A stretch of 64,000 bases of DNA from Musa acuminata AAA Group (taxonomy: Eukaryota > Streptophyta > Magnoliopsida > Zingiberales > Musaceae). A program made the position numbers and the translations under genes. The stretch is from positions 3,897,001 through 3,961,000 of the forward strand of contig NC_088357.1 of the NCBI RefSeq assembly GCF_036884655.1, in the 5' to 3' direction. The notes under the pieces are model-generated. The model searched no databases. It saw only the letters and a list, made by a program, of their open reading frames with translations, and had not been told where the DNA came from. Below, in pieces: positions 2,943 through 40,979 of the stretch (its first letter is position 1; each line of letters starts with the position of its first letter).

Positions 2943-4507
2943 CTAATTCAACTTGTTATCACCCGCGATTCTTGAGGTCGATTTCCCGCACGTTGATCTT
3001 TTGAATCGTAACCGTCGGTTCTTGAGGTCGAACTCCCACAGGTGCTCCTGCTGCAGGATGTTACCGATGACGGAGACGCCCGGCCACGGCGTTGCCACGA
3101 TCCCCAGGCACTTCACCCCGTCCGCCGTGTTGATCACGTAGGTCTTTGCAGGCGGCTTCAGCGACGCCGATTCGGCCAGGTGAACCACCATCCGCGGCAG
3201 ATTCTTGGCCGCGTTCGTCGGCGCGGTCGTCCAGTTGTAGCAGTACTCGAACGGGTCCATTTTCACCCTGGGGATCCCGGCCAGCCGCCGGTTCAGCGCC
3301 GACGCCACCGCCAGGTACGCCGGCTGCGCCAGCACGGTCAAGCTCGTCCCGGAGTCGAGGATGGTGCCGCCGCCCGCGCTGAGGTCCCACACGTCCTTGG
3401 GGATGGCCAGCATCTCCCCGTCCACGGAGATGCCATCGACGCCGACCGCGTAGAAAGGCTCCAGACCGAGGACGAGAGAGGTCTCGGAGGGAAGCGGCGG
3501 GGAGAGGACGGCCGGCCTGTGGCCGAAGACGAGGAAGTCGGAGGCGTTGCGGGGGCTGAGGTGGTCCACCAGGCAGTAGGAGAAGCGGCCGCCGAAGCGC
3601 GCGGTGGCTATCGTCGCGAATGAGATGTTGCTGTTGCCGAGGCCGAGGACGCCGTCCGACGCCTGGAAGCTGGATCCGGTGGAGTCGGACGAGCAGCCCA
3701 CCACCAGGTGCCGCAGCTTCGTGTGTTTCCCGTTGGATAGGACGACGGTGGCCGACTCGTTGGCGAAGACGCCTTGGGCCTTCGATCCGTCGCCGTACCT
3801 GCCACGGACAGCATCGCATGAAGCCAAAACCACACCGCACCTTTGGCCTTCTTCTGAAGGACCAATTGATTCGATTCACGTGAACGCGAGAGTGGCTTTA
3901 GGGGAATTATAACAAACAGAAGATGGGATATGATGCGACGTTACCTGTAGTCGAAAGAACATGGCATCGTCGGCGAGGGGCACTCGATCAACGAGAAGGG
4001 CAGCGAAGTCTTGCACATCTCCGAGGAGCACGGGATGGGCTGGAAAGACGACGACACCTCAGGGTGGAAAACCCGGGTCCCGTTGCCGTCGCCGTTGCAC
4101 AGGCGGCACCCCGGCAAACGCAGCCGGCACTTGACCCACGTGAGGTCGCTCCCCGTGTCGGCCACGAGCACGAAGTGCTGCGCCGGCTTGCCTAAGAAGA
4201 ACTGCACGAAGAACTGCGCATTACCCGTGTACACGCCCGAGTTGAGAGGCATCATGAAGGACTGCGCAGGCGGCGAGACTTCGCTCGCCCTCCGACCGTG
4301 GAGGCGCCGCCCGAGCCTGTCGTGGATGATCGCTTGCCGGAGCTGGTCGTCACGGAAGAGCTCCTGCATGCGTTCGAGCTGAGTCGAGCCGGCGGATGCC
4401 GGGCGGCGGAAGAGCTTGAGGCGAATTGAAGTCGAACGCTTTCCCAAAGCCAAGGCAAGGAATGCATGCGAGCAGACGAGCAGTAAGAGGAAGACCCGAG
4501 GAGACAT
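2943..4507 (-). CDS. Nepenthesin-type (A1) aspartic protease, NANA-like, two exons
   Basis: This is a pepsin-fold endopeptidase entering the secretory route. Exon 1 is 4507-3945 and exon 2 is 3798-2943, joined within an Arg codon, giving 472 residues. Residues 1-22 form a signal peptide with a leucine-rich core. A pro-region follows, then the first catalytic motif VADTGSDLTW (Asp117), a Cys-rich nepenthesin insert (residues about 126-175), the flap YGDGS (189-193), and the second catalytic motif ILDSGTSLT (Asp336). Both aspartates and most family cysteines are present, so it should be active. The closest relatives I recall are plant NANA-like aspartic proteases. The coding sequence is strongly GC-rich in exon 2. 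The only intron is 146 bases. Confidence 0.93.
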
Positions 4508-4533
4508 TGCAGTCGAAACGCAGCTACAGAAGC

Positions 4534-4607
4534 GCTCTCTCTCTCTCTCTCTCTCTACGATTCGTGTCTACTTGGCTTTCCTAAAACATCATTTGCTCTC
4601 TATATAT
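4534..4607 (-). promoter_or_regulatory. TATA box and CT/GA-rich leader of the aspartic protease gene
   Basis: Read on the minus strand, a TATATA element at 4607-4601 lies about 95 bases upstream of the start codon. The inferred transcript start near 4570 would put a GA microsatellite (4534-4556) inside the short 5'UTR. Such GA/CT leaders are common in plant core promoters. The transcript start is inferred. Confidence 0.5.
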
Positions 4608-5776: not shown

Positions 5777-8700
5777 TTAATTCAGGACGTCCAGAAACTG
5801 GGTGCAATCGATCCCTCTTTCTGTAAAGGCTGACACAAGCTTTGGGAGAAGTTTAGCAAGCATGATCTTAAACCCAGTAGAACAACTGTTGTGACATTTG
5901 TCGGCTGCTTCTCTGCATGCATCAGCATGCCCAACCTGAGCGCCATCCAAATATGCCTTACAAGCACTGAGAATATGATGTGACCTATGAGTAAAATGCT
6001 CCTCAACAAGTGCCTCAAAGTGCTGCAATTTCAATAAACCAGCAAGTAAGCTAAGTTGCAGGACCATCCGGAAACTAATAGCATAAATTACATAACGAAA
6101 AGAAGGTAATTTATTTCCAAAGTTACGTTGGCTTTTAGTCATCTTACCTTCGGTGGTCTACGTAAGATGTATAGCATCGACTTGCACGACTGTAGAAAAG
6201 CATTCTCATTGTACGTGATCGAGTTCTTCTCAGCCTCGACTCTTCCAATCTGTTCATCATATCCCGCCTCATTAAAATACGGCTTCTCATTAAGAACAAG
6301 GGCCTGAAGTGATAGCAACACTTGAAGAATTGTGGAGTTTTCTGGATCCCATACTTCGCTGCCACTTCCCATCCATGTCTTTAGTAGGCTGAGACAAACC
6401 TTCCCTGACTCGTACAAGTTTGGGTTTAGTCGAAGCCCCCCAGAGATGTAGTGAACAACCTACATAATAAATGTTTCTCCCATTAAAAAAAGCCTACCCT
6501 CAAAGCTCCAAACCACTAGAGTATGCAATATATTTTGGAAGAAATAAGTGAATCTAAATTTGCCAAACACTCAAAGCATATTAAGGACTGACATCTTTTG
6601 GAGCCTAATTATGTGGTGCAAGAAGACTCCTGACTCAAGAAAGAAGCACCTCGCATGATAATTTTTGAAGGATAATCAGTTTCAAACATCAAGATGTGCT
6701 TACAATAACTAATACCTAAATGCTCAAAATACTAATTTTGATTTATAAACCAAAAGAATAGTGTTTTGCTACTTGCAAAATATAATGACACCACTAAAGC
6801 AATCAGCATATAGATCCTTGTAAGATCCAGACCACCAAAACAATAATGAGACATGTTTTGAAGAAAAGAAATTTTGTGAAGTTGTCAAGTATTCAGAGCT
6901 AATAAGGCACCAAGACTTTTTGGAGCTTAGTTGCAAGATGCAAGGCAATGCATGAATAGTTTAAGAGAGCAGTTAGAATGACATCTAAGATAAAATACTT
7001 TTCGAATGAAAGTTAAGTAAACAAGGTTATCTGCAGCTTTGTCGGAACGTGCAATGTGTGATGCATACCTTGTTGAGAAAGCAATTATCTTGACCATGGA
7101 GATAAAGTGATCTTAAAGATGACAGTGAAACAAAGTGAAAATCAAACTGTACTTAAGTTTCCTAGAGTTCATTTCATCAAAGATCTAGATTTTCGTTGAA
7201 AAAATGTCATTGCCAACTTGACGTTGATTGTAGGTCAGATACTCTTTATAATATAATTAATCACATATACCTGATAGTAACAAATTAAGAGCTAACAAAA
7301 AGTTAATGCAACATTATGGGAGAGACATCCATTAGGGAACGCATGGGCCTAAAGATGCACCTCACTCAAAACTGTGAGTAGCAACTAAGATAAAACCCAA
7401 AGTCCAGTAAGCCTTCCCACTAGGAACACGTGAGGTGATAATTTAATAATATTAATTTATCCTTCATCGAATAAATGCTATTACTGAAGATAGAGATACC
7501 TAAGAAACATAGGCAAAGACATGCTGTCATGCAATAGAAATAATTGGCTGGCATTAGACTTGCAAAATTTTCATCTAATCTCTAACCATTTTGTTTAATA
7601 TTCAGAATAGGAAATCATCACTCAGTAGAACTATCACAGGTAATGAAGTTTAAGGTATGATAAACTAGAAAATAAATAAAATGTATATATGCATTAACAT
7701 ATGATGCAACCACACTCCATTTCTCAATTTTTGGAGTACTGAAGAATGAAACATATCCATTAGCACTAGCCAACGTGACCACAGAACCAATAAGAGTGAG
7801 AGAATCAACATATACTTGTACACTTGTTATCAGAACATGTAATCTAATATCATATTATCTCCTTTTGTGTTAATAGGTTTCAAAAGAGGTTTCTAAAGAG
7901 AGAACTCCCAACCTAGCACATTAGATATATCATCATCCAAGTGAGACTCTTCTAGCCAGGGTTGCCATGGATGGTGGCCATCAAACAGACCATGTTTAAA
8001 CCCAAATCGTTTGTTTATTTGCACTCTCTTTCTCACGTTCTTTTCCCTCCACCATGGCTTCTGCTATGGAACCATTATGTTAATAATCTATCATAACAGT
8101 GTCATTTAATCTCTTGAAGCATTGCTCTGGATCACTACTCCAGAAATTTGATTGAGACAACTAATAGGATTTCCACTAATTCTTGTTATCAAAGACTTTC
8201 ATCATTTTTCGTCTGATGTTTATGCTACGTTGAGGGCGAATGTCATTATCTGATTGGACGGTGTTAGTTCAAATAAAAAAATTGGACAATGGTGGGGCCC
8301 ATAGAGAAAAATAAATAACAAGGACCTCTAGGAGGTAATTGTGAAACTTAAGCTCCAAGAAGATATTAAAGATGAGAGGAGCTCGGCACTAGAGCAATTA
8401 ATAGATGTTGAAGGACAACCTGCAATAGGGTTGTTCAGGTGGTATGGATTCTGTGCAGGCGAAGAAAGAGGCCTCTTTCAGGAAATAGGTATGAATGTCA
8501 CTCTACCAACTGCTTCCGTAAAATTTAGGTGCAATCCAAATGAACAACCATAAAATCTTTAGTGTCATCATGATTCTAAGAACACCTACATCCTATTACA
8601 AAATTTATTTTATCCTGAACTTCCAGTATAAAATATTGACTTTGGTTTTCTTTCAAGTTCTTTCCCTATATATTATGATTATCTACCAAGAGTGTGATTG

Positions 8701-11700
8701 AAAATAACTAATTCGTACAGGCACATACTCAAAAACTAAACCATGCTACATAATATTTACTAATCTTTATAAAGAAAAGTCTTTTCTTGTAAATGTTCAC
8801 CATGTATTCAGGAGAAACCAATAATTGGAAAAAGAATACTTACAGGGGGTTCATGAGGATAGTCAAAGGGAAGAAAGATATCAAAGAAGAATAGACCATC
8901 ATGGTAGGGAGTTCCAGGTGCTCCTATCATTGATGCCCTCAGTAGATCCATTCTCTCCTCATAGACTCTGACATAGATTGTGTCTGGAAAGTGCAAGGAA
9001 TACATGCCACTATTAGCACAACAGAAGCAAAATGAATATAATTCTCAGCATGCAATTTAAAACCAAATTTGATCATCAGGTTTTATGACTGCTGTAAATA
9101 GAGCTCAACAGAATTTGACAAAAACTTATGTCTATTTGTTTTCCTTGGTTGTACAACTAGCACATGTTATAAAAGCTACATCGTACTTTTTCCTATTACA
9201 TACTAGTGTGGAACACACAAATTTTTATACACAAAAGAGGAGCACTGCAGGAGAAAGCAAGGACAGTTTTATTTGAAAAAAATATAACAAACTGGTGTCT
9301 TGTGAGAATACTGCAGTGACCATAGTTATTATCTCCTGAATCTTGACTAACCAAGTCCATCCAAGTATGCAAAAAAGTGTAATAAAATGAAAAAAATGAA
9401 GATGAATGGACAAAGTTAAATCATGCATCAGGATGGAAGAGCTCAGAATAAAGAATAAACCTGGAAGATCATTTTTTAAGAAGCTCCATTCTTGTTGTAC
9501 TCTCTTAAACCAACCCTTTTTTACCTGAGGATACTGAGAAAGTAAGATAAACCATAAAAAAATGGTACTCATGACGGATAATTAAATTCAAAGCACAAAC
9601 TTGTTTGCTCACATGGGACAACATCAATTCATTGCCAATGCCATTCACAAAATGATGGTCTGTATGATCATTTACAATATCAAATTGCTTGAACTTTCTA
9701 GGTTCATCACTGCCAGGTGAAAATGTCATCCCACCACTTTGTTTCGTCTCCTCAATCTGCTGCTTCAAATTTTCAGGCTGTAAATCAGTTGGTTCCGATA
9801 TATATTCTTCCATCTTCAAATTCCTATACTGAGAAAACTCCTGGAAAAATAGCCAATATGAGTTTGAGTTTGTGGTAGTTAAGATTGCATGTTTTATGAT
9901 GTACATAAACACACAAGAGAACAGGACGTAACTGGATCAGGCAAAGAAGTTGAACCACGAGAACAGAAAAGGCTTGTGGCAACATGTGTAAGGAACCCAA
10001 AAGCTGCCCCAGGAAACAAAGCAGAAGCGGCCTTCCAGACATCTTTCATGCAAAATCCACCAGAATCATCCGTAGATTTCTAGAATACACATTTTAACAT
10101 TTAAATTGTTCCTTTCTGATCAGTATTCTGGCATGAAATAACAAAACAGAAACAAAATAAACAACCACATTTGTGGAAAAGAGCAGGCCTGAACCTTTTG
10201 CCTCATATTCCATGATTGTTTCTCCTGATCAGTTAAGTCTTTGTCAACATTTGGAGGAAAAGACTCCATGGTAGCCGATGGTGTCAAGGCAGGATGAAGA
10301 AGCCTGTCCGGTCCAACTATTTCAAAAGGCATAACCTGATACCAATATTTGATATATTATCTCTTTAATTGGAACAACAAGATAAACAGAATGAAACAAG
10401 GAAACAGAAAAGCAAAGTTAACGTATTGCTCTGTACAACAAGGACAACAACAAAAAACTGCAAGGCCCCCATTACTTGGGAAATGTATTACTTTGTAATT
10501 GCATTTAACTAGCAACAAAAAGACCTGGACATAGAGCATAACCAACACTATATCATTAAATGATGACTTTAAAATGACAAAAAAATAAAAATATATAGAC
10601 CTAATAGGTAATGGGTACTGCAAGATATCATATCTGGAATCAATACAAACATTGGTCTCACAGAAACTAGTTGTGCTCTTGCACATGCATCTTACTTGTA
10701 ACCTAGTATCTATGTTTCACAATCCTGTAAATCATGGATACAATAACCAGAATCTCACCATAATACAAAGCTGCAAGCACATAACACCTCTATGTAATAG
10801 ATTAAGTTCAGGCCAAAAAACCTGAATTCTTACTAGCTTAATCAATGTTAATTACTTAATTCCAAGTAAAACTCCCATTTAAACTGGAGGTAAAATGACA
10901 CCGATCCAGAAACTTCCATATTGTTGGGACCTTATGCTAACTATACTAATCCATCTGACAAAAACCTGTAGGATAAACTTTAATGGGTAAATTTTGAAAT
11001 TACAACAGGTAAAAATTTATAAAAAAAATTTCCTAATAGTATTTCCTGGCAATGCATGCAAAAAAAAATGATGTCACTACAGATAGAAAAATGTATATCT
11101 AGCCACAACAGTCATACCTTGGATATCACACCATTGGCCCATTTAACTTCAATACCTTCATCCTTATAACCAATAACATTCCCAATGCATGATAGGTAAC
11201 CCTGTAGATCCTCATGATTGCATTCATCAATAGGCTTCTTGAGAGAACCAATTCCACAAAATAATCCATCTACTGCAACAGGCAAATTATGTCTTTCTTT
11301 CCAACTAATATTTTGCACATCAAGAATATTTTCTCCCACCTTCTGAACACAAGGAATTTGCCTAAGCACGGCATCACCAATGCAATAGGTGAAATCTGGA
11401 TGCTCAATCAGTTCATAAGCACTCACTGTCTCTTCAGTAAATTCAGTAAAATCACCACTAAAATCAACATTCTTGTTAAGCTCAGGAAGCATCCATTTCA
11501 CCTTCACAATCTGTTCGTGTGAATCCACATTTTTCACAATTCCCAGCCCTTGTGGTTGTGGAACATGTACTTCTTCTGTTGTTACTTTCTCTAGCACAAA
11601 CTGTCCTGGCCAAAAATCATGATCACCAATGTTGCTCACTGGAGACAAGGATTGAGTACACACACCAACTGACCTTTCACCATTTTGCCACAGAACATCA

Positions 11701-12587
11701 ACCTTGCTCCTGGTCTTTGCAATCACATACATCTGTAGAGTTTCCATATCCAATTCTTTCTGCATGTTTGTAAAGCACTTTGGAGAACTCAGAGTTCCTG
11801 AATTTTCTGCAGTCACATTATGGTAATCTACTGGAAGTGTACACCGATCACCAAGTTGCCAATTAGCATGTGAAAAACATGACAACAAAGTAAGGTTCTT
11901 TGGATCTTGGAAATGAGGTGGAGTTGATGAATGGATGCTCTGACCCACAACTGAAGCAACCCAACTAACATACACTAATCCTACCTCCACATGGCAGATA
12001 ATACCTTCATCTTGACTTGCCTTGAGTGAGCCGCAAAACCATGTTTTGGACTGGGAAATAGTCGGAAGATTAATTTTCACCCGCTGGCCTGGATGGAGAG
12101 GAAATGATGCATCTTCAAAGCTTGGATATAGCAGAGTTAGGTCTTTTGAGTCTCTGATCAATATTTCAAACTTAGCCCCATTATTAAATAGAATGGTAAC
12201 TGCATCAAATGTTTTTTCAATCCTTCCAAGCCATGGCCCATAAACTACAAAGTCTCCAGAGGCAAAGGATCTCAACCTAAGAAGTTTCTTGCTGTTTACA
12301 TCTTTTACGAGTCCACCAGAGGTTGTTTCCAAGTCTACAATCAGATCAACATCCACCACCCTTCCCAACTGTCCTGAAGGATCTGTAATGGAGCAGACGA
12401 AGTCGCCGAGAGCAAAGTGTCTCTCAAATGCAAGGAAGTCATCAATTTTTCCTATGCTCTCATCCAGACCTGACAAGATACTTTGAGCATGCCCGCCAAA
12501 TAAAGATTCATTGCAGTCTTGATTCTCACTATCACTAAATTCAGAGTAGGAATCACTATCTGAATCAACAAACAGTGCATCCATCAT
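5777..12587 (-). CDS. PHO2: PHO2-like E2 ubiquitin-conjugating enzyme (UBC24 type)
   Basis: This is a large E2/E3-hybrid-type enzyme that in Arabidopsis and rice degrades phosphate transporters and PHO1 at endomembranes, limiting phosphate uptake and loading. Coding exons are 12587-11118, 10335-10195, 10079 to about 9915 (or 9933; two donors keep frame), 9840-9601, 9524-9461, 8983-8844, 6459-6148 and 6022-5777, giving 919 or 925 residues against about 907 in Arabidopsis. The acidic N-terminus (SDSDSDSYSEFSDSEN) and the following domain match plant PHO2. The UBC fold spans TIYVRVYEERMDLLRA, GAPGTPYHDGLFFFD, YPHEPP, HYISGGLRLNPNLY and ESGKVCLSLLKTW, with the catalytic Cys in KVCLSLL. LNEKPYFNEAGYD and the C-terminal extension follow. 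All introns are GT-AG and frames join without stops. Confidence 0.95.
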
Positions 12588-13147
12588 CTAATTACCTGTT
12601 AAAAGTCAATATGATCCATTTAAGTATGATATCAAATGCAGCTGTTTACATAGAAAGCCAAATTTAAAATTAGATAACGGCTCACCTTATCATCAAGATA
12701 GGAAAGATATTACCCTAACAAGAAACTCTCCCATCTACACCCAAGACATCATTTGTTGAATAAGACAACCATGCACAAAAATGGGACTGTTGCAATATAT
12801 AGGATATTAAAATACAAATTGAACATGTAACAAAATAACACTTTGAAAACTATCATGCTACAAATCAAGATATTCACAGGGAAAAGAGAAAGAAGGGAGA
12901 GTCTACTTACCTCCAAGTTAATTTATCTATTCTATAGTCAACCCTGACGACTGATGGAAACAGATTGCTTCCTGACTGAACAAACATTGCAACTGCCAGA
13001 TGTAACCCCTGATGTGCTGAAATCCGCTGACATACTATCCAGAAAACAGCAACTGGTTCAATGTTATCACGGTATTATAAGTGCAATTACTTGATGCCAA
13101 ACAAGAATTATCTAGATACAGATGCAGGATCTACCTGATTCTATCAC

Positions 13148-13578
13148 TGCCAAAAGGAGATTTGCCCAGCTGAGCTGAGTTTACTAAATGGAGCTGATAT
13201 TGACTATAAAATGCCAAAGGAGATTTGCCCAGCAGCTGAAGAAAGCCAGTAAATGCCAAAGGAGATTTGCCCAGCAGGTGAAGAAAACTACTAAATGCCA
13301 AAGGAGATTTGCCCAGAAGAGTGGAAAACTGCTAGATGCCAAAGGAGATTTGCCCAGCAGAGTGAAGCAAACTGCTAGATGCCAAAGGAGATTTGCCCAG
13401 CAGAGTGAAGCAAACTGCTAGATGCCAAAGGAGATTTGCCCAGCAGAGTGAAGCAAACTACTAAATGCCAAAGGAGATTTGCCCAAGATGGAAAATCTTA
13501 ACCCCAATAGACATTTTCCCAAGAGAGAAAAAGTTAACTCAAAGCATATTAAGTACTTGCCAAATGAGATTTGCCCAG
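13148..13578 (-). promoter_or_regulatory. Array of nine miR399-complementary sites in the PHO2 leader
   Basis: On the plus strand the motif TGCCAAAGGAGATTTGCCCA, which is essentially the miR399 sequence, recurs; the minus-strand transcript therefore carries its complement. Sites are 13148-13169 (one extra A), 13212-13232, 13254-13274, 13296-13316, 13337-13357, 13380-13400, 13423-13443, 13466-13486 (last base differs) and 13558-13578 (one mismatch, G to T at position 8). Six are identical. Spacing is 41-43 bases across sites 2-8, so the array grew by tandem duplication of a unit of about 43 bases. Decayed copies lie at 13502-13522 and 13740-13760. miR399 cleavage of PHO2 mRNA at 5'UTR sites is established in Arabidopsis and rice. 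Confidence 0.93.
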
Positions 13579-14916
13579 AAAGTGAAGAAATTCTAAAAAT
13601 GTATCCCCCTACTAAGGAGGATTTGACAACCAGCACAAATAATCTCCCATACAGTGACCAGTAGATGATATTCTTGGACTGTCAATAGATGCGAGACTAA
13701 GAATTAACTTCAAGACAAGTCACTTTAATTGTCACAAACTGCCAGAGGAGATTTTCCAATTATAGAAAAGCCATTGCGCATCATGATCAAATATGCCAAT
13801 ACCAGCCTGCAAAGGACCATGACAGACAAAAACTTCAATTAGAATACATCTCTGCTGCTTGTAATGTCTTTCCTTCAAATAGAAGTTCATCAACAGCAGT
13901 TCAAGGTGCAATAACTAAATCAACAATATGAAAAGAAAAAAAATCATAATTACACTTTTCAGAAAGGTAAGTGATATATGCAGCAAAGCCCTAAAACCTA
14001 TTCTACTAAAAAATGCATTTTTTTCTCAAAGAGAAGGAAGATGCCTTCTTTCCAGAAAAAAGAAACATATAAAAAGCAGGAATAACAGTCTAAGAAGAGA
14101 GAGAAGAGAGAGAGAGAAGAGAGAGAGAGGTCAAAAGCCTCCAAAGCTATATCCGACCATGAAAACTTGAGCATGAACGGGAGAGGTGGGAATCGACTAT
14201 TAATAACAAAAGAAAAAACTCCTTAGATACTATATAGGCGGATGATAATGAGATTTATGGTCAATAAATTAGAGATTTTCTGCTCAAATTCGTGGACCAG
14301 TTGATAAAATTATAAAAGTACCACAAACTTTAAAGATAATTAAAGACAACAAACTAAAACTCATCATTTTTTCCCCCAAAATAAAAACCTATCTACACCT
14401 CTATAGATCTATTACAAAATATATTATGGAAAACATGAGCATCTCTATTATTACAAGTTAACTTTTTGTTGGCAGTCAGAAAATTTACCAAGAAAGTTAA
14501 CAAACCCTACCCACAATCCTGCATAACTTTCGATGATACTTTTTACCGCAAAAGATTTAGTGAGTAAATTCCTTTTTTCCCAAGTCTAGGCACTCAAATA
14601 AAACACCTATATGTAGAACAACAGATTCCATGTGTACAGAAAACTCAAAGCCAAAATTAACACCACGTTCGAATTATTCATCCACAGAATCCACAGCAAA
14701 GACGAAATCTTCCTCACAAGTGTATGCATTCGCAACACACAACTCGAAAAAACGTTCCATTTAACACTAAAAACACAACAAAAGCACAGACATGAAACCC
14801 TAAGCCGCCAACAAATCAGAAACACGGAAGCAGAGAGAAATACCACGGTCCGTATGCCCGACCCACGGATCGAAGAAGAGGAGGCAGTGAGAGAGAACGA
14901 AAAGAAGAAAGGTCTT

Positions 14917-14982
14917 TCAGCGCAGAGGCCTGGTCCCTCCCCGAACCCCGCCCAACGCGCCATCTGCGAAGCTTCCAACCAT
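14917..14982 (-). other. Candidate upstream ORF (21 codons) in PHO2 leader exon 1
   Basis: An ATG at 14982-14980 in the predicted first leader exon opens a 21-residue frame beginning MVGSFADGALGG and ending in TGA at 14919-14917, before the first donor. If the transcript starts upstream of it, scanning ribosomes would meet it first. There is no evidence that it is translated or conserved; it is recorded because PHO2 regulation is leader-based. Confidence 0.3.
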
Positions 14983-15249
14983 GGCGCAGCGACGAGAACG
15001 GGACACAACCCCAAATCAGGCCTGTGGATCTCCTATTTTCCCTTCTGCCTCCTCTTCTCGCCCGAAATTCCCCCGCTTTGCTCTGTCTCGATCGTCGTCG
15101 ATATGCTTCGGGAATCCTACAAGCGGAAAATAAGCTTCTTTTCTCTCGACCTCTTTATGGCGTATGGAATTATTTTATCTGCAAAGATTTGAGTGCGGTT
15201 CGTGTTTTTGGGGCGGAAAGGGGATTACAACGCGGCTATTAATTATTCA

Positions 15250-18170
15250 CATTAGTATATAATCACGATTCTTAATTAAAAGTTTTAACATGTAATATAT
15301 ATTAAAAATATCAAATACCTAAAATATATTTAATATTCTTGGCTTAATGGAAGTTTTATTTTTTGCTCCGACATTTAATTCAGTCAAATATATATATATA
15401 TATAGGTTGAAACTTATTAAGGATATTTTTTTGCTAAACTCAAAAATTGCGGTTATAAATGCAAACATAATTTTAGAAATATGTTTGCTAATCTAATATA
15501 ATGAACAAACGGAAAGATTTGTCTGCTCGTGGCAATTAAGTCAACTGCGCACTCGTGTTGGCTTCTTTAACAAGCGGCAGACCGGCCCGCCGGGAGTTGA
15601 CTTCATTCCTTCACCGCTCCGCTTTTGACCGGTGATGCAACTTGCTTGGGTGCAGGTAGGCACACGTGCCAATTCCAATCTGTTGTCCCATTGACTCTAC
15701 CATAATTAGAATTATACAAATATTTTTCACTCCAATAAGGTGAATAATAATACAAATATTTTCTTGTTCTTCGTAGAGACAAAAGAAAAAAAAGGGAGGT
15801 GAAACGTCAGATAATCAATTCACCAACGTTCGTAGGATTTGCTTTAAATACGTTTTGATCCAATCTGATAAAATAAGTAACTCATTAACTGATTAATTCA
15901 AATGTTTAAGTCTCTTAAGCTCATCCTAATATGGTCCCTATTCGAGAGTTCTATAATAATTCTTTCCACTTTAAGTACAGAATGTTAGATTTGTTTTGAA
16001 CCGATTAACTTTAACGAACCTAAATCAGCCAAAGTAATATTAGTACACCTACTCAAACTTGGATTGTCCCCTCATGAGTAGTGTGAGACTAAACTTAGGT
16101 TATCACAAAAGAATGTGACATTCCTCAGTGCTGCCCGTGATATGTTGTGGGCTGTTCAGCTGTGAAATAAAACGAGCAAAAAAAGAAAAGCAAAGCAAAG
16201 ACAAAAACATGCGCTTTGCAACTTTACGATCTGTACTCAACTCACCTCGAACGAGAACCGCTGGTTTGTATCAGAAAAAGGGAAAGGAAGAGGAAACTAA
16301 TGGTGGCTGAGAGAGGGCGTCGTGTTAACTTGACAGGTATCACCTGTTTGGTGGCTCTTGGTATTAGTTAATAAATATTACAAAAGAATAATAAGATCAT
16401 TTTTGAGAAATGGAGCATTGATAGAATAGTAGCTTTATCTATCATGACAACAGATGGGTGGCATAGTTAGAGAAAAAGCTTGAGATCATTCCTCATGGAT
16501 ACCCACTGGAGCACTGTGTTGATTTATTGGAGAGAGAGAGAGAGAGAGAGAGGGTTATGATGCTTCACTATTATTAAAGAAATGCTGATGTTCCACTTTC
16601 TTCAACTTTGTAGTAATGACAGCACCCAGTAAGGCTCTGAGAGAGTGGTAGCTCTCTTGCCAGCCCAAAGGTTTAATGGTCTCTGACTCATCTCCATGCC
16701 AAGATTAGTATAGAAAACAGAACAGTCTGCTTAGGGTTGTTATGAGCCACAAGGAAAGCTATGATTTAGCATCAGTCTCTTCTCCCCACTATCTCTAGTT
16801 GTGTTTTCTTCTCACTGCAACAGTCACAGAAAGAAGTTGATCCTTTTCTATCAAGTGAAGTTGCATCTACATAGAACGATAGGGTTGGATAAGAGCATAA
16901 AGATTTGGTGGGTTGATCTCTTGACTAGGGCTGTAGCATTATGAAGACTGTAGGCAACAGGTGATGGATGTGATGGGAAGGACTGTGGAAGAAGAGACTG
17001 TATTAGCATGAAACACAAAATGCTTACAGAATCATATGCTTATCTAATGAGGATAAGAGCCGGAAACAGGGACCAGTGATCATGAAACCTGCGTCCTTGG
17101 TGCCCTTTGGCATCATGACTCCAACCACAACTAGTAATAGTTTTTGGCATTTAACTTTTGGAGGTGGAGGGGATTGTAGCACATGGCCTCCATGGATTCA
17201 GCACTTTTCCACTGTCACTGGTGTGATGGGGATAGGGAAGTAAAAGAAAGAAGATGATGAAGATAGACACTAATTTGTGGAGTGGAAGGCTTAAGGCACC
17301 CACAGAAAATAATATAAAAGAAGAGAAGTTTATTGCTTTGTCAATGATAAGGCTCTTCATTGGGGCCATGAAAACTTGTGAGGTATTCCCATGCAAATGC
17401 TTTCTGGGACCGCCTTGCTTGGACTTGGAGAATGTGAAGGTTAATAATGGAGAAGCATAATGGCAGTGGAGATCCCACCATTGCAGGGGTGGATGCATAC
17501 TAAAACTAACGGCAATTGGAGGCATTTTCTTGACCATGGAAGGGAGCTTCCATCTCCATCTCGGGGCCATTTAAGGAGCACCAAGCTTTGTGACCTCCAA
17601 AGGTTGTGCAGGAATCAAAGGTGGTCAAGAGCCAAAAAGCCAGCAACATTGATGCCAGTAGTGCTGAAAGCAAAGTAGGTGGCAAAGAACAAGAGGCAAA
17701 TCTTGTTAGACAGTGACCAACATGAATTGGATGGTGACCAAGCAGGAAGAATGTGGTCTTCAGTTGGACAACTAACTGGAAGAGACTTTAGAAACTTTTC
17801 AAGGGGCTCCAACAAAAGCCATAAATAAACCCAAAATTGATTTCGAAATCCAATTTATATCAAAGAACCACAGAATGAATACATTTCATCATGTTTTGAT
17901 TACACTTTTAACTGCAGCAAAATGGTAGTTTAGGATTCACGAGTCTTGTTGATTTCAAATACCTGACTGCCTCTCTGAATCATCTTATGAAAAATAGTCT
18001 AATTTTTTATGCACTACATTCCGAGCTCGAGTTCGAAAAAAAATACACTTGCAGCAGATTCCAGATGCTCGCATGTCCTTATGGCCACTATATTATTGTT
18101 GCAGTTTCTAATGGTGAGTGGACTGAGATCTCAGAGATATAAAGTTGGTCTGATCCACAACAATAAGGAT
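15250..18170. other. Intergenic region without a recognised gene
   Basis: 15250-16100 is AT-rich flank. A GA microsatellite lies at about 16532-16551. 16100-17850 is less AT-rich and has two modest open frames (minus 17151-17570, plus 17460-17678) that match no family I know and overlap each other; it could hold a non-coding transcript. From 17850 to the bL21m stop codon the sequence is probably that gene's 3' flank. No microRNA hairpin or tRNA was recognised. Confidence 0.45.
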
Positions 18171-26302: not shown

Positions 26303-26402
26303 TTTCTGAACCTTGATTTTATGTTGAAATAGAACGCCACTTGCCCATAAAATGCTCCCATGGCAGCATCAGGTTAGAGTTGAATCTTCCCTTTAGCTCG
26401 CC

Positions 26403-27662
26403 ATGCCTTCCGAGACCTGCGCTGCTTCCTTCACCTACTTCTTCTTCTTCTCGTTCGCCATCTCGGCCGCCCAGCAAACCGATGCCGTCTACTGGTCGCC
26501 GCCCAACGTGGCTGTGTCCTTCCGCCCGAGCGTCGCCCTCGTGATCGGGATCTTCGCCCTTATGTTCTTCCTCACCTTCCTCCTCATATACGGCAAGGTC
26601 TGCCACTCCGCCGCCGCCGCTCACGCCACCGACCTCCTCGTCGCAGACGCCGCAGGCCATGGAAGGTTTATACTGCCCCAGGACCGCTTCTCCGGCATCG
26701 ACAGGACCGTCATCGAGTCCCTACCCTTCTTCCGCTTCTCGTCGCTGCGCGGCGTCCGCGACGGCCTCGAGTGCGCCGTCTGCTTGTCCAAGTTCGATGA
26801 CGCCGAGGTCCTCCGGCTGCTGCCCAAGTGTAAGCACGCGTTCCACGTCCGCTGCGTTGACCGCTGGCTCGAGGCGCACTCCAGCTGCCCCGTATGCCGG
26901 TGCATGGTCAACGCCGACGACGACGGCCTCTTCAAGTACTCCACCAGCTCTCGCTTCCTGTTCGCCTCCGACCGGCTCGAGGCCAGCGGCCGTGACCTCG
27001 AGTTGTTCGTGGAGCGAGAGCCCAACGACGCCCGCAATCTCCGCGGCTCATCAGGATTCAGCATCAGTAGTAGCTTCCGGAATACCGACAAGTGGCGGGA
27101 GTTGCCAACGCTCGAAGAAGGCGCCAGTGGCGGCCGAATCCTGCACAAGTTCAAGCACAAGATCATCGTCTCCGATGTCGTGTTCAAGAGCCGGTGGAGC
27201 GACGTGAACTCGTCCGACTTGATATCCTTGGACCTGGAAATGCTATCCGGTAAAGACGTGGTCTGGAATGTGGAGTCAACGAGATCAAGCGCATCAGAGG
27301 GAAAAGCTTCACCTGATGACAAACTACTCAGGATTAAGGAAGAGATGGAGAAGAAGAGACTGCTCGAGATCAAAGCCAGCCAGATCAACAAGAACAACTC
27401 GATGTCTGTTCCAAGCATTTCATCGAGCGGCACCAACACGAGAGCTCTTATTTCCTCAGGCAACAGATCGATGTCGGATATCACAAACGTATCAAGGTTT
27501 ATGCAGCTCAAAGATCCCGGCAACAGCGCAACCCATGGAGATGAAGACGAGAAGGCGAGGAAACTCTGGCTGCCGATCGCGAGGAGGACCGTGCAATGGT
27601 TCGCGGGAAGGGAGAGGAGGTCACAGATGCAGTGCAGCAGAAGAGAGTCCCCAGGTGTTTGA
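26403..27662 (+). CDS. ATL-family RING-H2 E3 ubiquitin ligase, intronless
   Basis: This is a membrane-anchored ubiquitin ligase with a single 419-codon exon, as is usual for ATL genes. Residues 1-22 form a signal-like hydrophobic start, and a transmembrane helix spans about 41-63 (SVALVIGIFALMFFLTFLLI). The GLD-type motif RDGLECAVCL leads into a complete RING-H2: Cys124, Cys127, Cys143, His145, His148, Cys151, Cys162, Cys165, including the conserved Trp of DRWLEAHSSCPVCR. The long Ser-rich C-terminal tail with HKFKHKIIVSDVVFKSRW resembles the ATL42/ATL43-type long members I recall. All eight metal ligands are present, so activity is expected. The gene is strongly GC-rich in its first half. 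Its substrate is unknown. Confidence 0.93.
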   Translation: MPSETCAASFTYFFFFSFAISAAQQTDAVYWSPPNVAVSFRPSVALVIGIFALMFFLTFLLIYGKVCHSAAAAHATDLLVADAAGHGRFILPQDRFSGIDRTVIESLPFFRFSSLRGVRDGLECAVCLSKFDDAEVLRLLPKCKHAFHVRCVDRWLEAHSSCPVCRCMVNADDDGLFKYSTSSRFLFASDRLEASGRDLELFVEREPNDARNLRGSSGFSISSSFRNTDKWRELPTLEEGASGGRILHKFKHKIIVSDVVFKSRWSDVNSSDLISLDLEMLSGKDVVWNVESTRSSASEGKASPDDKLLRIKEEMEKKRLLEIKASQINKNNSMSVPSISSSGTNTRALISSGNRSMSDITNVSRFMQLKDPGNSATHGDEDEKARKLWLPIARRTVQWFAGRERRSQMQCSRRESPGV

Positions 27663-29063: not shown

Positions 29064-29941
29064 CGTCACGAGGCCGCATGAGATAGAGGTGGTCGTAGAC
29101 GAACCCCGCGAGGCCACTCCCCACGAAGGGCCCCGCCCAGTACACCCAGTGATTGGTCCAGTCCCAGGTGGCCAGGGCGGGCCCGAAGGACCTCGCCGGG
29201 TTCATGGAAGCCCCCGAGAAGGGCCCGCCGGCGAGCGTGTTGGCCCCCACGATGAGACCAATGAGCAGCGGCGCCAGCACCGACACGATGCCCTTCTTGG
29301 GGTCTACGATGATGGCGTAGATGGAGAAGACCATGGAGAAGGTGAGGACGACCTCCATGATCGCACCTTGAAGGGGCCTTATGCCCGCACCAAGCGCGTG
29401 AACAGGGACGGCCTGCTCCACCGCCAAGGGTAGGAGTTAGTTCCGAGATATGAGCAGGTAGCAGACGAAGGCGGCAAGCAGACTCACCTGCCCTCCAGCG
29501 ATGTACTGGAGGAGGAAGCAGGCCATGGAGGAGCCCAGCAGCTGGACGATCACGTAGAGGACGCAGCGGAAGATGGTGACGTAACCGCCGGCGGCAAACC
29601 CGATCGTGACGGCGGGGTTCAAGTGCCCCGCCGAGACGTCGAGGCCGACGGCTACCATCACCGCCACCAGCATCGCCTGAGCCACAGCCACCGCCGTCAG
29701 TCCCATGATCGAGTCCTGCCCTCCTGCCATCTTCCCTGCAACAACCACCACCGATGCCACCCCTCAAATACCAAACCCAGCAACAGGTTGAGAAAAGGAA
29801 ACGAGTCATGTTACCGGCGGTCATGGACGCAGCGACGCCGACGAAGACGAAAAGGAAGGTGAGGAGCAGCTCGGTGAGGACGGACCGAGCGAACTCCGGG
29901 TCGGTCATCTCCTTTCTGCTTCCCAGCTTTATCCTCGCCAT
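29020..29941 (-). CDS. Tonoplast intrinsic aquaporin, TIP4-like, three exons
   Basis: This is a vacuolar-membrane channel for water and possibly small neutral solutes. Exons are 29941-29815, 29735-29488 and 29412-29020, giving 255 residues. The six-helix MIP fold is complete. The two NPA motifs are HLNPAVT (NPA 82-84) and SMNPARSFG (NPA 196-198). [21 protein letters not shown] and [21 protein letters not shown] match TIP4 proteins. The helix-2 selectivity position, usually His in TIPs (VAHA), is Gln here (VAQA), and the loop-E position after NPA is Arg. Intron positions in loops fit the TIP pattern. The acceptor of exon 3 could lie three bases earlier (one extra Gln). A TATATAAA-like element at 29983-29990 lies just upstream. 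Confidence 0.95.
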
Positions 29942-30561
29942 CTCCGGGGTATGGTACCAATGTTTGGTCCTCTGTTGGTGGATATATAAAGAGCGAGGAA
30001 GAGCTAATTACGTGGCCTGGCTTTTTACTGTGTGAATAGCTCTGTCAGATAAGGTTGAGCAACTTTGGCCAGATATTTATTTGTTGAGATGAGCAATAAG
30101 GCAGTCGACGTCATCTAGATATTTCTAAGCACCGTAAATTTGGATCAGATATGATTTCCATCAATGTGACCCGAATCCAATACAAAGAGAAAGATTTCCA
30201 TCGGATTGAGTGCACCCGAATCACAAATAAAAATCTAATCTAACGATTACCTACATATTAAAAAAAATTGAAGTTTGAAATTTTTTCGTATAATATTATA
30301 ATTAGAAAATTCAGATAATATCACTGGTCACGTAAAATAATTATTTTATCTCTATTGTCGTCGGAATCACCGTCGTCTCCGTCACCGTCGCTGTACCCTA
30401 GCTGGACCTTTGGGGGGATAGTACGGGTAGGGGGGCGGCCGACGGGGTCAGCCGAAACTCGTGGAGGCTGCCAACAGCAATGCTTTCGGTGGTCCAATGT
30501 GCTTTTCCTCATGCGAAAAGAATGGAACGTAATGCCTTATGTGGTCCGCAGTGTCAATCTC

Positions 30562-40087: not shown

Positions 40088-40373
40088 AGGACATGAAATG
40101 GAGATGCAATTTGCGATCGAAAACTTCTCGCTATGGTTTCTCGATCTGTGTCAGAATATATTATGAATTGCACTGAAATCGTACGAATGTTTTATATGTG
40201 ATTTATAGAGGCATTAATGACCCTCAATTGTCGTGCTTATCATATTTATGTCAATAGTTATTGGGCTAATAAGCCTTACATAGGAGCGACAATTAATTGG
40301 GCCATGATGGGCCGTCATAGTGATATAGCTTTGCGTGGGGCGACGGTTCGCAAGTAGCCTTCCCCCCAAAAGG

Positions 40374-40979
40374 ATGAACAAAGCCGCGGGAGGAGGCGGC
40401 GGAGGAGGCGGCCCGACGGCGGCGGCTGCGGCCGCGGCGGCGCAGAAGCAGAAAACCCTGCTGCAGAGGGCCGACACCGACGTGACCAATATCGTCGACA
40501 ACTTTAATCAGCTCGTCAACCTCGCTAGGGTTTCTATCTTTCGTTCCGTAATCCTCCCCCTGTTGTCGATCTGTCGCTCACCCTTCGGCCTCTTGATTTT
40601 AGGTCAACGACCCGCCGGTTCGCAACTCGCAGGAAGCGTTCCAGATGGAGATCCGGGCCGCAAGGATGGTCGGAAACCCTTCTTCTCTGCTCCTTCCCGT
40701 TCGATTTCTTGTTTTCATCGTGTTAGATTTCGATGGCAGGTTCAAGCGGCGGAGTCGTTGAGGAATCTGGTGTCGGAGCTGAAGCAGACGGCGATCTTTT
40801 CGGGGTTCGGCTCGCTGAACGAGAACGTGGACCGGCGGATCGCCGAATTCAACCGGCTGGAGGAGGGTTCGGAGCGGCTTCTTGAGAGGGTCGGGGAGCA
40901 GGCCGCGGCCAGCCTCAAGGAGCTGGAGGCGCACTACTACTCGTCGGTCCTGAGGACGAGCCCAAGCGAAGGCCCATGA
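40374..40979 (+). CDS. MED22: Mediator complex head subunit MED22, three exons
   Basis: This is a subunit of the Mediator head module that bridges transcription factors and RNA polymerase II in the nucleus. Exons are 40374-40529, 40603-40668 and 40740-40979, with phase-0 junctions, giving 153 residues, close to the length I recall for plant MED22. It starts MNKAAGG with Gly and Ala tracts, then [60 protein letters not shown], and [17 protein letters not shown] near the end. Helical content and motif order match the family throughout. Both introns are very short (73 and 71 bases). The stop codon and downstream sequence are tandemly duplicated. Confidence 0.95.

Follow-up and report, generated by a model that had tools for sequence, protein, structure and literature searches.

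A tandem array of miR399-complementary sites in the predicted PHO2 leader of Musa acuminata

We find nine sites complementary to miR399 at positions 13148-13578 of the window, the 64,000-nucleotide stretch of Musa acuminata DNA analysed here. All nine lie on the minus strand, in the sense orientation of a gene that, to judge by its predicted domains, is PHO2/UBC24, a UBE2O-type E2 enzyme, with the array in its predicted leader. That this gene is PHO2 and is targeted by miR399 appears almost certain to us. We also consider it probable, with clearly less assurance, that the array is a tandemly amplified, miR399-responsive PHO2 leader in which the added sites reduce the amount of miR399 needed. 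We place this second statement lower because its dose effect and the alternative that the extra copies are passive exclude each other.

Results

The sites and their repeat unit

Six of the sites are identical 21-mers, each complementary at 21 of 21 positions to UGCCAAAGGAGAUUUGCCCAG: S4 (13423-13443), S5 (13380-13400), S6 (13337-13357), S7 (13296-13316), S8 (13254-13274) and S9 (13212-13232). The sole deviation of S3 (13466-13486) is a G:U pair at miR399 position 21, and S2 (13558-13578) has a single mismatch, at miR399 position 8; S10 (13148-13169) is 22 nt long, one target base bulging out across from the miR399 seed. The same exon holds a weak tenth site on the minus strand, S1 (13740-13760), with four mismatches to the core isoform. 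A search of the window with the 18-nt core at up to three mismatches returned 10 matches, all on the minus strand, against 0.06 expected by chance.

The core of the array is made of six head-to-tail units of 41-43 nt (S3-S8), and the start-to-start distances are 42, 42, 41, 43, 43 and 43. TRF places the minus-strand tandem array, with its period of 41-43 nt, at 13209-13485 and describes it as 6.5 copies of 43 nt with 93% matches. The segments 13326-13399 and 13369-13442, which differ by a shift of 43 nt, are identical over 74 nt, so that one duplication is recent relative to the others.

We compared the sites with the spacers between them. Across units S3-S8, variation affects 1 of 21 columns in the sites and 11 of 22 in the spacers (P = 0.0015 by Fisher's test and 0.001 by column shuffle), and between adjacent units 1 of 105 site columns has changed versus 16 of 109 spacer columns (P = 0.00017), P values that serve as guides, as the units share ancestry and the adjacent-unit comparisons are partly dependent. 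With substitutions only, the contrast is weaker (1 of 21 versus 8 of 22 columns; P = 0.02, likewise a guide). Near-invariant sites amid drifting spacers fit selection on the sites. An earlier note on this DNA, made from the letters alone, had described nine sites, six of them identical and mostly spaced by 41-43 bases, and had proposed that a unit of about 43 bases was amplified; both descriptions agree with these results, in which the site is the conserved part of the unit, and S1 is an addition to them.

Weaker resemblances were also seen. Two candidate decayed sites in the exon, near 13522 (14/21, P = 0.05) and 13630 (13/21, P = 0.23), are within chance, as is a 15/21 match on the minus strand shortly beyond the predicted donor, at 13095-13115 (about 0.3 expected per 9.9 kb). 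The last of these is also present in the two other haplotypes described below, and all three may be relic sites. The predicted accessibility of S3-S9 was not raised: the fraction unpaired was 0.43 versus 0.47 in spacer-shuffled controls, and 29 of 30 shuffles were at or above the observed openness, which makes the sites slightly less open than the controls.

The PHO2 gene and its leader exon

The assignment to PHO2/UBC24 follows from UBE2O-type E2 domains together with miR399 sites upstream of them. On the minus strand, the first coding exon (11113-12587; 491 codons) encodes UBE2O-type SH3-B domains (PF23046, 1.9e-33; PF23043, 7.3e-15), and its best PDB matches are UBE2O-type chains. A probable middle coding region at 9505-9936 is an open frame with no Pfam match, in which 60 residues show 50% identity to a PHO2 paralogue by tblastn. 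The exon at 6140-6459 carries an E2 (UBC) fold (PF00179, 3.5e-8), with (E3-independent) E2 enzymes as its best PDB matches, and a GKVCLSLL stretch that we take to hold the active-site cysteine of the E2. The probable last coding exon, 5777-6157, is an open frame with no Pfam match of its own, placed by its position and in part by what we presume to be the PHO2 C-terminus.

The array lies in a predicted untranslated exon at 13135-13806 on the minus strand, defined by splice signals only: a sense acceptor, TTTGCAG, ending at 13807 and a donor, CAG/GTAGAT, at 13135. These limits differ by one base from the 13135-13805 that had been claimed. The next acceptor, TTTTAACAG, stands before 12595, just ahead of the ATG exon. 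A stronger alternative donor, GAG/GTAAGT, is found at 12911, which makes the predicted downstream end of the exon provisional. Several miR399 sites in the sense orientation therefore precede the ATG within this exon predicted from splice signals. In wheat, barley and bean, the available portions of the published accounts likewise put the PHO2 miR399 sites in exon 2, ahead of the ATG. Six upstream ATGs occur in 13806-13487 and none in the core array, an absence that is unremarkable because the array is repetitive. No PHR1-binding P1BS motif was found in 12501-16500.

Matching miR399 in the same genome

We searched the assembly (1,527,734,421 bases in 1060 contigs) for the exact 18-nt core and recovered at least 31 copies, seven in each of three PHO2 arrays (on contigs C9, C20 and C31, the last being that of the window) and 10 elsewhere. 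Of the 31 reported copies, 21 thus fall in PHO2 arrays and the other 10 in MIR399 precursors, and a reversed control pattern gave 0. The 10 copies outside the arrays occupy seven loci with 10 Rfam MIR399 precursors, all of which score above the curated cut-off. A whole-genome family search, in which 45 of 64,514 first-look candidates were scored, placed at least 17 MIR399 loci over the Rfam cut-off.

For 12 of the 17 we could read the mature form, as we could at one locus below the cut-off, and at two more it was visible; C20:48629727 and the two C21 loci are left out of this reading. The mature form UGCCAAAGGAGAUUUGCCCAG, the perfect partner of S4-S9, is encoded at seven precursor loci over the Rfam cut-off, which comprise two allele trios and one locus on a small contig. 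Five further precursors above the cut-off encode isoforms with one or two mismatches, none before position 13: UUUGCCCUG, with one mismatch, at C6:43202917 (the form is also visible at C17:42252800 and C28:38310854); AAUUGCCCUG, with two, at C10:32785137, C9:48148036 and C31:47884908; and AAUUGCCCAG, with one, at C10:32786363. The locus below the cut-off, C31:3523041, has a poorly matching mature form. Given the UBE2O-type E2 downstream of the sites and the perfectly matching miR399 in the same genome, the proposal of the earlier note that this is a PHO2 leader with miR399 complementarity holds.

MIR399 precursors also occur as pairs on opposite strands, separated by about 1.2 kb, at loci L011-L013 and at C10/C21 near 32.79/35.36 Mb. 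Four other strings, three at the plus-strand precursors of L011-L013 and one at the minus-strand precursor of L011, were left uncounted; we read them as complements of the star arms of neighbouring precursors.

Haplotypes and paralogues

Homologous contigs recur in steps of 11 (C9/C20/C31, C6/C17/C28, C1/C12/C23 and C8/C19/C30), a pattern that implies three haplotypes, each with 11 chromosomes and about 509 Mb, and that would fit a triploid banana. Around PHO2, C9 and C20 (loci L009 and L010) do not differ at any of 9,901 nt, and both share 99.63% identity with the C31 copy in the window (18 mismatches and 4 gap openings). The identity of C9 and C20 may reflect a shared recent origin or an effect of assembly. 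All ten sites recur at identical spacing in three of three haplotypes, which represent only two distinct sequences. The earlier note had suggested that copy number could vary as in a minisatellite. No such difference appeared among these three haplotypes, but their low divergence, at which only about one substitution is expected in the exon, makes this a weak test. Within 12581-14200, the sole difference between haplotypes is a 13-bp indel at 14096-14108 in a GA repeat; alignment rows at 12580 and 14200 were left out as edge effects of unequal segments. The repeat itself is a GA/CT microsatellite at 14092-14129, upstream of the array exon, and is 13 bp longer in the window haplotype than in the other two.

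A PHO2 paralogue with about 54% identity and in-frame stops sits close to the beginning of the chromosomes that carry PHO2 (in C31 at about 236396-238187 in contig coordinates, within locus L038, C31:234500-244400). This broken gene has one degenerate miR399 site (18/21) in each of the three haplotypes; in L038 the site comes soon after a possible acceptor, and it is the same site in C9 and C20. Because its coding frame is broken, the paralogue is uninformative on the ancestral number of sites. In roughly 8 kb upstream of two more distant UBE2O-like genes (41-44% identity; one haplotype of each), no site matched at 15/21 or more.

Comparison with published PHO2 leaders

The Musa leader resembles known PHO2/UBC24 leaders in the type of gene, in the untranslated exon upstream of the ATG and in the clustering of its miR399 sites. 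Published counts, taken from the available sections of each paper, are five in Arabidopsis (PMC4678812), rice (PMC9009289), wheat (in each of three copies; PMC4945926), bean (PMC3645745, which also cites poplar with five) and Medicago (in each of three copies; PMC10319397), five or six in barley (PMC3878733, PMC4919326) and four in N. benthamiana (PMC6296076). Against these four to six sites in eight species, the nine to ten in Musa exceed what is usual in the literature so far as these sections report it, in line with the earlier note. The Musa leader also differs in having six identical, perfectly paired sites in a regular tandem repeat of 41-43 nt, whereas the positions given in the accessible part of PMC3645745 put the bean sites unevenly, 91, 170, 54 and 54 nt apart.

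In other plants, miR399 represses PHO2 through leader sites, cutting at some of them (PMC3878733 and PMC6296076, from the portions at hand). The same portions report cleavage at two of five sites in barley (PMC3878733) and at two of four in N. benthamiana, with four of five cited for Arabidopsis (PMC6296076). For one barley site with a perfect match, that part of PMC3878733 reports no cleavage product, so perfect pairing is no guarantee of use.

Among open-licence titles and the opening lines of abstracts, searches for higher site counts, tandem repeats or banana PHO2 turned up no such array. The available text of banana microRNA studies (including PMC4391839) gives no PHO2 site count; some of these name other predicted miR399 targets and not PHO2, and one, as far as its available text goes, confined its target search to coding sequences. 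The available parts of PMC4053937 and PMC3598684 give no PHO2 site count either. A paper on Brachypodium tandem-repeat lncRNAs and miR399 (PMC5595811) possibly deals with tandem miR399 sites in noncoding RNA. The view of the Musa array as a known type of regulatory leader in enlarged form, one that we did not find described in these sources, is well supported.

Discussion

Amplification of the leader sites and its possible effect on dose

To our knowledge, the reason why PHO2 carries several miR399 sites is not settled. In the explanation that we favour, one 43-nt unit, consisting of a 21-nt site and about 22 nt of spacer, has been tandemly amplified to give ten sites, eight strong and two weaker. 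Each strong site would add a chance of cutting per transcript, and less miR399 would then be needed to silence PHO2.

We modelled this dose effect in two ways. Where sites are independent and catalytic, the half-point falls as 1/n (0.2 for five sites, 0.11 for nine) at a Hill slope of 1, and where RISC is consumed, going from five to nine sites moves the half-point from 0.160 to 0.156 and the slope from 1.80 to 1.87; both models are minimal and their parameters arbitrary. The earlier note had expected silencing to become steeper or more sensitive. Greater sensitivity is borne out in the simple model and would be the safer expectation of the two; a steeper response would be the weaker one, as the slope rises slightly, and does so under RISC consumption only.

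With roughly twice the usual number of sites, most of them identical and at even spacing, this natural leader offers a ready-made test of whether site number governs the dose response, and through the number of PHO2 sites one might influence the phosphate efficiency of a crop. The array further suggests that a microRNA target site can multiply by tandem repetition and itself remain intact.

Alternative explanations

The most serious competitor accepts the same PHO2 leader and takes the extra copies to be passive products of slippage, with one or two sites cut and their number having no regulatory effect. The exact 74-nt identity at a 43-nt shift, the mark of a recent duplication, speaks in its favour, as do the partial use of sites reported for barley (two of five) and N. 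benthamiana (two of four) in the text available and the small shift of the half-point in the titration model (0.160 to 0.156 from five to nine sites). Passive copies should decay alike, however, and the sites stay identical while the spacers of the same units diverge; we regard this explanation as possible but rather unlikely. A further proposal would make the array a self-reinforcing silencer, in which cleavage leads to dsRNA and to 21-nt siRNAs that strike other units; if true, it would turn a graded miR399 signal into a switch-like shut-off of PHO2. Because the antisense of the array is a repeated miR399-like sequence, siRNAs from one unit can target several others, and the 257 core 21-mers indeed match a mean of 4.9 places in the exon at up to three mismatches, themselves included, versus 1.45 for 395 others. 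The positions of S3-S10 fall within about 2 nt of a single 21-nt register, S10 (5' end at 13169) at register 0; S1 deviates by 3 nt and S2 by 10 nt. Cleavage at separate sites would thus feed one phase, but the shared register is largely a consequence of the single repeat length, which counts against the proposal. The published record, as far as the available parts of these papers go, includes PHO2-associated small RNAs in barley under phosphate deficiency (PMC3878733), a rise of PHO2 siRNAs in Arabidopsis ski2 mutants (PMC4678812, PMC8860578) and a need for RDR6 in silencing by exogenous miR399 (PMC8516643). In the same partial view, the PHO2 siRNAs of Arabidopsis are of low abundance, map 5' of the sites and are described as RDR6-independent (PMC4678812), which argues against a self-reinforcing silencer, and we judge it improbable.

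The remaining alternatives question what the array is. An IPS1-type target mimic is recognised by a central bulge, placed between positions 10 and 11 of miR399 in the duplex. Like such a mimic or a sponge that sequesters miR399, the Musa array is miR399-complementary RNA and would put many high-affinity sites on one molecule; yet 0 of 10 sites are bulged between positions 10 and 11, S2-S9 are fully paired at the cleavage centre, and the array precedes a coding gene. With the central bulge absent from all ten sites we rejected the target mimic, and sequestration of miR399 by the array seems very unlikely. An even slighter chance attaches to the reading of the plus strand as a cluster of MIR399 genes. 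That strand does share the mature sequence of MIR399 precursors (Rfam RF00445), carrying TGCCAAAGGAGATTTGCCCAG six times, and an annotation of this kind has a precedent: in the available section of PMC4919326, a miRBase entry from barley is a PHO2 site in reverse complement. Yet the window contains no Rfam MIR399 match, the array gave none at a permissive threshold, and it remained unmatched in the whole-genome family search (45 of 64,514 candidates scored). Seven plus-strand folds, each of 156 nt, lie between -21.9 and -27.4 kcal/mol and pair 48-57% of the mature bases; seven of eight folds at real MIR399 loci have -53.5 to -72.6 kcal/mol, and the eighth locus, L015 (-35.3 kcal/mol), whose fold is too short for the star arm, still passes Rfam. 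Lacking both a hairpin with mature and star arms and an Rfam match, the plus strand was rejected as a MIR399 precursor. Equally remote in our view is the idea that the copy number is an artefact of assembly. Exact repeats can be mis-assembled, and the identity of C9 and C20 over 9,901 nt is possibly itself such an artefact; but the array is only about 280 nt long, most of its units can be told apart by their spacers, and all three copies agree.

Other genes in the window

PHO2 is adjoined by an aspartic-protease-like gene (TAXi_N, TAXi_C) at 2944-4567 on the minus strand. The frame at 29069-30007, also on the minus strand, had no Pfam match over its whole length; its start resembles what we take to be a tonoplast aquaporin, and it is possibly an exon followed by a change of frame. 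On the plus strand, the window holds a gene for a RING-H2 finger protein at 26397-27659 and one for Mediator subunit 22 (Med22) at 40329-40976.
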